Source of the DNA: Candidatus Thioglobus perditus
GTDB lineage: Bacteria > Pseudomonadota > Gammaproteobacteria > PS1 > Pseudothioglobaceae
Direction: 5' to 3'
NCBI GenBank assembly: GCA_002909145.1
Contig: PNQY01000015.1
Location: 1-61,311, forward strand
DNA length: 61,311 nt
Of the stretch, positions 6,902-33,620 are shown in pieces. A program made the translations under genes and the position numbers. How positions within the stretch are numbered: the stretch's first letter is position 1; each line of letters begins with the position of its first letter. The notes under the pieces were generated by a model. That model searched no databases. It saw only the letters and a program-made list of their open reading frames with translations, and was not told the DNA's origin.

Positions 6902-7192
6902 TTATACACATCCAGTAGGTTGTGGCATGCCGCCATACTTAGTAATGGGCTTCATAGGTCCTGTTAGCCACTCCTTAAAAAGAATCTTTTTATCAATACC
7001 AACTACCTTTGCAAAAGTTCGGATCGGTGGCACCGCTGAGTTCTCAGCAAAGTATTCCCTTGCTGCAAGGATCTGACTAACTTGTGAATCAGTTAAAGCA
7101 ATATCATCCTCAGTTGCCATTTTATGCATAATTTCTTCAGTCCAAATTGATGGGTCTACCAAGTAGCCATTTCCTGTTCTATCCAATGTCAT
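6902..7192 (-). CDS. DsrC/TusE-family sulfur carrier paralogue with a single C-terminal cysteine
   Basis: A 96-residue DsrC/TusE-family protein. The family pattern is clear: G-Y-L-V-D-P, W-T-E-E near residue 17, A-x-E-D-D-I, and the C-terminal arm GGMPQPTGCV with the penultimate cysteine (Cys95). In catalytic DsrC a second cysteine stands 11 residues upstream and forms the trisulfide or disulfide; here that position is Thr84. This is the TusE-like state, in which one cysteine accepts persulfide for tRNA 2-thiouridine synthesis, or of regulatory DsrC homologues. The true two-cysteine dsrC is in the dsr operon at 33297. The gene is divergent from prmA and sits under a perfect FNR-type dyad. Family is secure; the precise role (TusE versus other) is open. 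Confidence 0.88.
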   Translation of the reverse strand: MTLDRTGNGYLVDPSIWTEEIMHKMATEDDIALTDSQVSQILAAREYFAENSAVPPIRTFAKVVGIDKKILFKEWLTGPMKPITKYGGMPQPTGCV

Positions 7193-7235
7193 TTTTTAAT
7201 ACCCTAGTAATTTAATTGGTTATATTATATATTAA

Positions 7236-7249
7236 TTGATTTAAATCAA
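7236..7249. promoter_or_regulatory. FNR/ANR-type binding site
   Basis: TTGATTTAAATCAA is a perfect match to the FNR consensus TTGAT-N4-ATCAA. Its centre (7242.5) is about 41 bases upstream of a possible start near 7201 for the DsrC-like gene (-10 TAAATT read on minus at 7214-7209). It is also about 71 bases upstream of a possible start for prmA (-10 TATACA at 7302-7307). Either spacing suits FNR-type activation. The match is seen directly; regulation is inferred. Confidence 0.6.
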
Positions 7250-7361: not shown

Positions 7362-8240
7362 ATGGACTGGATGCAGATTACACTTAACACCTCTAAGGAT
7401 CAGGCTGATTTTGTTAGTGAAATACTAATGGGGCTAGGTAGTAGTTCGATAACTTTTAGCGATACACATGACGATGCAATTTTTGAGCCTCCTGTAGGAG
7501 AAACTCCACTTTGGCAGAACACAACTATTACTGCTTTGTTTGATTTAGATGTTGATCAGAATCATGTACAAGATATGTTGTTGCAGATTTGTAATATTAA
7601 TAACACAAGTTTTGAGTTGTTAAAAGATCGAACCTGGGAAGATGAATGTAAGAAGGATTTTCATCCTATGCAATTTGGCAAGCGCATATGGATTTGCCCC
7701 TCATGGGAGGACTTATCTAAATTGCCAAAAGATGCTGTTGTAATTGATATGGATCCTGGATTGGCATTTGGCACCGGAACCCATCAGACTACTGATTTGT
7801 GTTTACAATATTTGGATGAAAAACCTCCCATTGATAAGAGTGTAATTGATTATGGATCAGGCACAGGAATATTAGCAATTGCAGCGGTGAAGCTTGGTGC
7901 TAGTAGTGCAATTGCTATAGATAATGACCCGCAAGCAGTTGTTGCTACATTAAATAATATTAAAAACAATAAAGTTGATGACAAAATCTGCGCTCTACAT
8001 ACTGATGAGGAAGGTAAGTTGGATAAGGTGGACTTACTAATTGCTAATATTTTAGCTAATCCTTTGATCGGTCTTTGTGAGCATTTTTCTGGACTAGTTA
8101 AGACTGGTGGAAAAATTGCATTATCAGGAATTTTGCAAGATCAGTTAGATATGGTTATAAATACATATAGTGAGTATTTTGATAATTTAACAATAATACA
8201 AAAAGATGATTGGTGTCGAATTGATGGGACAAGAAAATAA
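7362..8240 (+). CDS. prmA: Ribosomal protein L11 methyltransferase
   Basis: PrmA trimethylates ribosomal protein L11. The start at ATG 7362 gives MDWMQITLNTS and a length of 292 residues, almost the same as E. coli PrmA (293); the longer reading frame from 7317 adds an unrelated N-terminus. Family marks include THDDAIFEP near residue 36, the DPGLAFGTGTHQTT motif near residue 135 and the SAM-binding VIDYGSGTGILAIAA segment, followed by NILANPLI. The gene lies 3 bases before the PP-loop gene and is divergent from the DsrC-like gene. Confidence 0.95.
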   Translation: MDWMQITLNTSKDQADFVSEILMGLGSSSITFSDTHDDAIFEPPVGETPLWQNTTITALFDLDVDQNHVQDMLLQICNINNTSFELLKDRTWEDECKKDFHPMQFGKRIWICPSWEDLSKLPKDAVVIDMDPGLAFGTGTHQTTDLCLQYLDEKPPIDKSVIDYGSGTGILAIAAVKLGASSAIAIDNDPQAVVATLNNIKNNKVDDKICALHTDEEGKLDKVDLLIANILANPLIGLCEHFSGLVKTGGKIALSGILQDQLDMVINTYSEYFDNLTIIQKDDWCRIDGTRK

Positions 8241-8243
8241 ATA

Positions 8244-9287
8244 ATGAGCAAACAAATTAAAGCAGTATCTCTAATATCAGGGGGGTTAGATTCTTTACTA
8301 AGCACTAAGTTAATGCTTGAGCAGGGTATTCATGTAGAGGGTATCAATTTTTTTACTGGTTTTTGTGTAGAAGGGCATACACACGCTATTCGTAAGCAAA
8401 AAAGTGATAAACAAAAGCGTAATAATGCGTTATGGGTTGCAGAACAGCTTGGCATTAAGCTGCACATTATTGATGTGATTGAAGAGTATCGAGATGTGCT
8501 ACTTAACCCTAAACATGGCTATGGTAAAAATATGAACCCTTGCCTTGATTGTAAAAGCTTTATGGTTAAAAAAGCTAAACAATGGGCTGAAGAAAATGAT
8601 TTTGATTTTATTATTACTGGCGAGGTTATAGGGCAAAGACCAATGTCCCAGCGTAAAGATACTATGCCAGTTGTGCAAGCTGAATCTGGTGCGGATGATT
8701 TGTTATTACGTCCGTTATGCGCACAACATTTGCCTGAAACTAAAGCAGAGCATGAGGGCTGGGTGGATCGTGAAAAGTTGCTTGGTTTTTCAGGGCGAAC
8801 ACGCAAGCCACAGATGGCTTTGGCCAAAAAGTATGGTTTTAAAGATTATGCAACTCCAGCAGGGGGGTGTTGTTTTTTAACTGATAAACAGTATTCCGAT
8901 AAATTAGTTGATATGTGGCAAGCTCGTGGAAGTCGTGAGTATCAACTCGATGACTTGATGATGTTGAAAGTGGGGCGACATATTCGTCCAAATAATCGAT
9001 TTAAACTCATTGTTGCGCGTGAAGAGGGTGAAGTTAAATTTCTAGAGGGTTATCGAAATCAATATTTTAATTTATATCCAGTTAGTTGTAATGGGCCATT
9101 GGCACTTATTGATGGCGAGCCAACTCAAGACGATCTACATTTGGCTGCTAGGGTGCTAGCCAGATATTCTCAAGGAAGAGAAGATGATTCGGTTGATGTT
9201 GAAATAAATCTGAATAATGGTGTTATGCAAAAATTATCAGTAGCGCCATTTAAAAATGATGAAATTGACAAGTCTTGGCTTGTCTAG
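8244..9287 (+). CDS. PP-loop ATPase with NFACT-R-like C-terminal domain (tRNA thiolation-type enzyme)
   Basis: A 347-residue protein of the ThiI/MnmA-related PP-loop class. The ATP pyrophosphatase loop SGGLDS is at residues 12-17. A NPCLDC motif near residue 92 and a GGCC motif near residue 207 supply candidate catalytic or metal-binding cysteines, and ITGEVIGQRPMSQR is a conserved family segment. From about residue 230 the sequence (DLMMLKVGRHIRPNNRFKLIVAREE) resembles the NFACT-R domain found fused to such ATPases in proteins often annotated as thiouridylase-like. PP-loop enzymes adenylate a substrate carbonyl so that persulfide sulfur can be inserted. The setting next to a TusE-like protein, thiS and a CxxC metallochaperone agrees with sulfur-transfer chemistry. 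The substrate is unknown. Confidence 0.75.
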   Translation: MSKQIKAVSLISGGLDSLLSTKLMLEQGIHVEGINFFTGFCVEGHTHAIRKQKSDKQKRNNALWVAEQLGIKLHIIDVIEEYRDVLLNPKHGYGKNMNPCLDCKSFMVKKAKQWAEENDFDFIITGEVIGQRPMSQRKDTMPVVQAESGADDLLLRPLCAQHLPETKAEHEGWVDREKLLGFSGRTRKPQMALAKKYGFKDYATPAGGCCFLTDKQYSDKLVDMWQARGSREYQLDDLMMLKVGRHIRPNNRFKLIVAREEGEVKFLEGYRNQYFNLYPVSCNGPLALIDGEPTQDDLHLAARVLARYSQGREDDSVDVEINLNNGVMQKLSVAPFKNDEIDKSWLV

Positions 9288-33296: not shown

Positions 33297-33620
33297 ATGG
33301 CTGATATTTTAGGCGCAGAAGTAGATGAAGAAGGTTTCTTGGTAGATCTTAAAGATTGGACTAAAGAAATTGCAGAACAAATGGCAAAAGATGATGATAT
33401 TGAGTTAACAGAAGAGCATTGGGATGTTATTGATTTCTTACGTGAGTATTTTGAAGAGTACCAAATTGCACCAGCAGTACGTGTACTGACTAAAGCAATC
33501 GCTAAGAGAATGGGTAAAGATAAAGGTAATTCAAAGTATCTTTACTCTTTATTTCCATATGGTCCTGGTAAGCAAGGTTGTCGTTTCGCCGGCCTTCCAA
33601 AACCAACTGGTTGTATCTAA
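33297..33620 (+). CDS. dsrC: DsrC, sulfur-carrier substrate protein
   Basis: A 107-residue true DsrC. Both redox cysteines of the C-terminal arm are present, in GCRFAGLPKPTGCI at residues 95 and 106 (11 apart). The arm enters DsrAB, and the two cysteines form the trisulfide intermediate that DsrMK processes. The sequence also has the family TEEHWDVIDFLREYFEEY helix and KYLYSLFPYGPGKQG. GGAG precedes ATG 33297. A hairpin terminator follows. Compare the single-cysteine paralogue at 6902-7192. Confidence 0.97.
   Translation: MADILGAEVDEEGFLVDLKDWTKEIAEQMAKDDDIELTEEHWDVIDFLREYFEEYQIAPAVRVLTKAIAKRMGKDKGNSKYLYSLFPYGPGKQGCRFAGLPKPTGCI

Follow-up and report, generated by a model that had tools for sequence, protein, structure and literature searches.

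The window, i.e. the whole 61,311-nt stretch of Candidatus Thioglobus perditus DNA analysed here, carries a dyad of the Crp/Fnr family at positions 7236-7249 (no strand assigned), the perfect palindrome TTGATTTAAATCAA, which was characterized by motif scan, shuffles and comparison with relatives. The dyad lies inside a 169-nt gap between two divergent genes, a DsrC-family open reading frame on the minus strand (6902-7192) and prmA, encoding the ribosomal protein L11 methyltransferase, on the plus strand (7362-8240, ATG at 7362). Both the exact match to the FNR/ANR consensus and the position in the divergent gap had been claimed in an earlier note, and both held true, as the site is a perfect TTGATN4ATCAA and fits the operator pattern TTGAT/C-N4-A/GTCAA. 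Only one other perfect match to TTGATN4ATCAA occurs in the window, and this second site (41994) is intragenic. The same note had seen no comparable site before the dsr operon; in agreement with this, no TTGAYN4RTCAA site with 0 or 1 mismatch was found between 26303 and 37371, the stretch that contains dsrA (29719), dsrB (31068) and dsrC (33297-33620).

The DsrC-family gene at 6902-7192, the presumed target of the dyad, encodes a protein of 96 aa that was assigned by family models and by its cysteine pattern, and that matches TIGR03342 and PF04358 above the curated cut-offs. Orthologues (at least 61% identity) are present in 44 of the 83 family genomes, two of them being cut by contig ends, one down to 23 residues. 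In all 42 complete orthologues the penultimate cysteine (CysA) is kept and CysB is a threonine, in contrast to the dsr-operon DsrC of the window, which has both C-terminal cysteines, so that the protein does not have the two-cysteine pattern of dissimilatory DsrC. According to the available text of PMC3397948, members of the TusE/DsrC/DsvC family outside the two-cysteine DsrC type possess CysA only, with CysB replaced by A, S or T, and it is this pattern of a TusE-type sulfur carrier that the 96-aa protein displays. Its score against the TusE equivalog model NF008562 was 33.2 bits, below the cut-off of 191. In the window prmA is followed by a gene (8244-9287) whose ThiI/MnmA-like product contains an NFACT-R_2 domain and is a possible sulfur-relay partner; in most loci compared, this gene lies close to the DsrC-like one.

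When the 120 nt preceding the DsrC-like start codon were scanned in all 44 genomes, allowing up to one mismatch to TTGAYN4RTCAA, a dyad was detected 47-50 nt from the start codon in our own genome and in 8 of the 12 genomes of the nearest genus (g9). Seven of these nine dyads are perfect, those of G067 and G068 contain one mismatch, and a dyad within one mismatch is absent from all 31 promoters scanned in other genera. G065 shows two mismatches at the dyad place, a level that 12 of the 31 promoters of other genera also reach somewhere. Conservation is concentrated in the arms of the dyad, where departures from the majority amount to 0.25 per position as compared to 2.0 in the N4 core (nine sequences, i.e. 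our own genome and eight of g9, with G065 included and G068, identical to G067 here, left out). The dyad is lost in G063, G066 and G071, although the flanks and a downstream TATAAT are intact, which fits a dyad that overlays a working promoter. In a tree computed from PrmA, the DsrC-like protein and AlaS (22 genomes, rooted among other genera), our own genome stands next to g9, with a support of 0.997 for the two together and 0.982 for g9. On this reading, one gain of the dyad before the split and one loss in the clade of G063, G066 and G071 explain the pattern. In genera g5, g8 and g10 the DsrC-like gene is preceded not by the dyad promoter but by another conserved promoter block, TATAAAAACCAAG...AGGTAA...TATAAT, which carries an inverted ACC/GGT repeat.

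The TATAAT (7224-7229, minus strand), which we predict to be the -10 box of the DsrC-like gene, is separated from the dyad by 6 nt in our own genome and from the corresponding position by 5 nt in the promoters of the 12 g9 genomes, and it is identical in all 13 aligned promoters. On the same side, nothing better than 4-of-6 hexamers is found 20-24 nt from the dyad, namely TTAAAT/TAAATT at 20-21 nt, while the best -10 on the prmA side is TATTAT at 17 nt; a sigma-70-type -35/-10 pair was not found in the region by a consensus promoter scan. In class II activated promoters the site is centered at about -41.5 and the -10 box follows about 22 nt downstream, a spacing that neither the TATAAT nor the TATTAT has, and the earlier suggestion of plausible activator spacings for either gene was consequently not confirmed. 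In the part of PMC3688515 available, the site is centered within 4 nt of -41.5 in 19 of the 23 E. coli promoters that FNR activates and whose start is known, and at FNR-repressed promoters the site may be anywhere from upstream of the -35 element to the start site. The dyad studied here thus resembles the E. coli FNR operators (TTGATN4ATCAA) in its exact consensus, and the repressed ones in that their positions vary, but differs from most activated promoters in abutting the TATAAT. Since this is not an activator spacing, repression appears likelier than activation, and the predicted overlap of the dyad with the core promoter of the DsrC-like gene, with the TATAAT 5-6 nt downstream, fits such a role. 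Similarly close spacings occur elsewhere in our own genome, upstream of coxB (-10 at 7 nt) and of a D-2-hydroxyacid-dehydrogenase gene (6 nt). A coxB match was obtained in 8 of 13 genomes searched, the coxB-like genes of the 7 relatives being 47-56% identical (that of G065 is a fragment); no perfect upstream dyad was found in these seven, and two (G067 and G063) have a dyad with one mismatch. We therefore rejected coxB as a conserved case of repressor geometry, and it backs the geometry in our own genome only.

Activation of the DsrC-like gene by a regulator of the Crp/Fnr family in the class II manner, through the weak -10 TTAAAT/TAAATT 20-21 nt downstream, is a possibility that this hexamer leaves, even if we consider it unlikely. 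It draws on the preference of E. coli FNR for -41.5, on the block AATTAAATTACTA, which the majority of the 13 aligned promoters retain, and on a c-type cytochrome gene beside a DNR-like gene that has TTAAAT at 22 nt from its dyad (plus TATAGT at 17). Likewise, as far as the accessible portion of PMC10224306 describes them, tusE and tusBCD of Actinobacillus are preceded by predicted Fnr sites and are up-regulated in biofilm. However, the downstream hexamer matches in 4 of 6 positions at best and is TGAATT in G072, a leader of only about 13 nt would, in our reading, give scant room for a ribosome site, and it is the TATAAT that is invariant across the 13 promoters. Repression from a site within the core promoter, then, appears the better account of the geometry.

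The wider distribution of the motif shows that the dyads of our own genome form a regulon of the FNR/DNR type. This could not be concluded from raw numbers. There are 40 TTGAYN4RTCAA sites in our own genome as compared to 14 for a reversed-pattern control, but the motif exceeds its control in all 83 family genomes, including the six without any PF13545 match (G069, G070, G074, G075, G078 and G081), and the genome-wide count was therefore rejected as regulon evidence in favor of the split between coding and noncoding sites and the phasing of -10 boxes. Noncoding dyads account for 29 of 40 sites in our own genome and for 21 of 51 in G061, which has regulators, as opposed to 2 of 35 in G070, where PF13545 finds no match. 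Beside the noncoding dyads are narG, nosZ, hemN, nrdD, a radical-SAM gene adjoining ubiU, a gene with an SCP2 domain (ubiT by eye) and all four regulator genes described below; further neighbors, identified by eye, are narK, norC, sqr and atpI. Several of these neighbors are truncated where the locus ends and owe their names to partial matches. In a hand-picked list of 39 oriented upstream dyads of our own genome, 8 are followed at exactly 22 nt by a -10 box (5 of 6 positions matched, A2 and T6 included). This is the class II position of FNR activators; the mean at other offsets was 0.78, and a value of 8 was not attained in any of 20,000 circular-shift replicates. When the count was automated, it came to 7 of 39 in our own genome, 5 of 29 in G061 (plus 4 at 21 nt) and 0 of 3 in G070. 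The genome motif scan that had been proposed as a check thus revealed a regulon with class II phasing, and the geometry at the DsrC-like gene is off this phase. The dyad can be regarded as an ordinary member of the regulon with an unusual geometry, which is probably repressive.

Four Crp/Fnr-family proteins of our own genome score above the PF13545 cut-off (L015-L018), so that the FNR-family regulator that the earlier note had asked for is present; a fifth match is below the cut-off and is ParB by eye. A TTGAC-type dyad is located upstream of each of the four genes. L017 and L018 are DNR-like proteins, a label that is our own since no NCBIfam model scored above cut-off for either. In L015 a NIT domain (nitrate/nitrite sensing; PF08376 at 3.3e-29) is fused to the Crp/Fnr regulator; its gene (contig C16 of our own genome, G000, about 45.8-47.3 kb) is divergent from a gene that is narK-like by eye, with a TTGAC-type dyad between the two. 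L016 obtained its best scores with the FnrL and Fnr models, below their cut-offs, and has the N-terminal cysteines of an FNR-like protein. The roles of the recognition-helix residues, including the glutamate, are known from work on FNR. Three of the four proteins have an E-x2-S-R recognition helix, whereas L016 is without the glutamate that the DNR-like proteins have. Our survey of regulators comprised at least 48 distinct proteins among the matches listed for our own genome and its relatives (duplicates removed). All 29 DNR-like or NIT-type proteins among them combine the E-x2-S-R helix with a C-terminal C-x2-C-x7-C-x7-C motif, 16 proteins of the L016 type among the matches listed have TKVH(V/I)(S/N)R in the recognition helix, and 3 fit neither type. 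Because of the E-x2-S-R helix, whose glutamate the L016 type lacks, the DNR-like proteins would be the likelier binders of TTGA half-sites, and it is one of them rather than L016 that we infer to recognize the dyad, unlike in E. coli, where these operators are those of FNR itself. The designation of the site as FNR-type stands with regard to the presence of FNR-family regulators, while DNR-like is the better reading. The C-terminal motif recalls the Fe-S ligands at the C-terminus of Bacillus Fnr but differs from them; for Bacillus Fnr, the available text of PMC3520743 provides a precedent of C-terminal cysteine ligands. In several genomes of genus g5 (L112, L113, L117, L122 and L123) DNR-like genes are present as broken remnants, mostly with internal stops.

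Conservation in relatives had been named as a further check, and the dyad is retained, with at most one mismatch, in 8 of the 12 genomes of the nearest genus. A DNR-like gene (at least 55% identity) is present in six g9 genomes, five of which keep the dyad within one mismatch, the sixth being G065 with two mismatches, and three of the six g9 genomes without such a gene also keep it; with 12 genomes and a single loss clade, these numbers are too few for statistics. The three g9 genomes that have lost the dyad contain no match to the DNR-like protein above 28% identity, and because they form one clade, the losses of dyad and regulator perhaps represent one event. Among the genomes that keep the dyad, G068 (66% complete) has no PF13545 match above cut-off, and G069 (92% complete) and G070 (98% complete) have no PF13545 match. 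In other genera, G043, G047 and G076 possess both a DNR-like and a DsrC-like gene and no dyad. Alternatively, the dyad could be the operator of another regulator whose site looks alike, or be left over from recent common descent where the Crp/Fnr genes have disappeared, to which we give a similarly low probability as to class II activation. G070 speaks for it, as the perfect arms with an altered core are retained here in a genome without a PF13545 match and constitute one of its only two noncoding sites, and the geometry unlike that of the class II set points in the same direction. On the other hand, the regulator may have been lost at any time on the G070 branch, and G062, a close sister of G069, retains the regulator. 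The geometry and the G070 exception are the points of interest of this locus.

That the dyad is a match by chance, or that it serves fortuitously as a -35 element (TTGAT/TTGAC), is very unlikely. The gap is AT-rich (21% G+C), the motif excess described above occurs in every family genome whatever its regulators, and TTGAC looks like a -35 element, but only 3 of 20,000 dinucleotide shuffles of the 169-nt gap yielded TTGATN4ATCAA, both arms are conserved across the clade, and a -35 role would leave the right arm unexplained and places the TATAAT, by our counting, at a distance of 13-14 nt, which is too short. Control of prmA, judged from family models and relatives' loci, is more improbable still. 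In the window this gene is divergent and only 169 nt away from the DsrC-like gene, and a TATTAT is found 17 nt from the dyad. In the eight g9 loci holding both genes, however, the two are 450-623 bp apart, and in the five g9 loci read a small co-oriented open reading frame separates them, while the distance between the dyad and the start of the DsrC-like gene remains 47-50 nt; in addition, none of the 31 promoters of other genera, many of which have prmA next door, has a dyad. Thus, of the two targets proposed in the earlier note, the sulfur-carrier paralogue is the likelier and prmA an unlikely one.

Taken together, the sequence comparisons lead us to propose, with moderate confidence, that the dyad is an operator belonging to the anaerobic and denitrification regulon, that it is bound by a regulator of the Crp/Fnr family, most probably a DNR-like one, and that it acts on the TusE-type DsrC paralogue rather than on prmA. 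Given that the dyad overlaps the predicted core promoter instead of being at -41.5, the bound regulator would most likely exclude RNA polymerase, so that less of the DsrC paralogue would be expressed when oxygen is low or nitric oxide is present. Its expression may, as the earlier note suggested, differ from that of true DsrC. In low-oxygen seas, SUP05/Thioglobus bacteria link the oxidation of sulfur to the reduction of nitrate, and no literature joining SUP05, FNR and Thioglobus was found in the single literature collection searched. If the proposal is true, one sulfur-carrier paralogue is tied to an oxygen/nitrogen-oxide switch, and a testable list of regulon genes is at hand. A comparable arrangement is described in the available text on FnrL and DnrD/E/F of Dinoroseobacter shibae (DNR/NNR-type denitrifier regulons), which likewise has several Crp/Fnr regulators; the dyads precede regulator, denitrification and heme genes there, and these regulons involve both activation and repression (PMC5398030). 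The candidates in our own genome differ from these regulators in their C-terminal C-x2-C-x7-C-x7-C motif and, in one case, in the fusion to a NIT domain. A more detailed scenario, which we offer only tentatively and think rather doubtful as a whole, is that as denitrification starts the TusE-type carrier of the SUP05 clade would be repressed by a DNR-like regulator that carries a C-terminal four-cysteine (possibly Fe-S) motif, the sulfur-relay pool thereby being remodelled opposite to the genes of nitrogen-oxide respiration, and that a second regulator may have taken over the operator in G070.

A second DsrC-family gene of our own genome, located 3' of narGHJI (L001:1784-2119; relatives in L206-L218), is preceded by a dyad with a -10 box at 22 nt. 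A switch between paralogues involving this gene was set aside, since the dyad is scarce there in relatives, a perfect one being found only in L217 (G043), at -202, and one with a single mismatch only in L207 (G057), among the 13 of 18 relatives' stretches fetched that contain the gene. The protein, with the tail ACKVSGMKRPRGWSTG in our own genome, has kept CysB and lost CysA, as have all 13 of these narG-side relatives.
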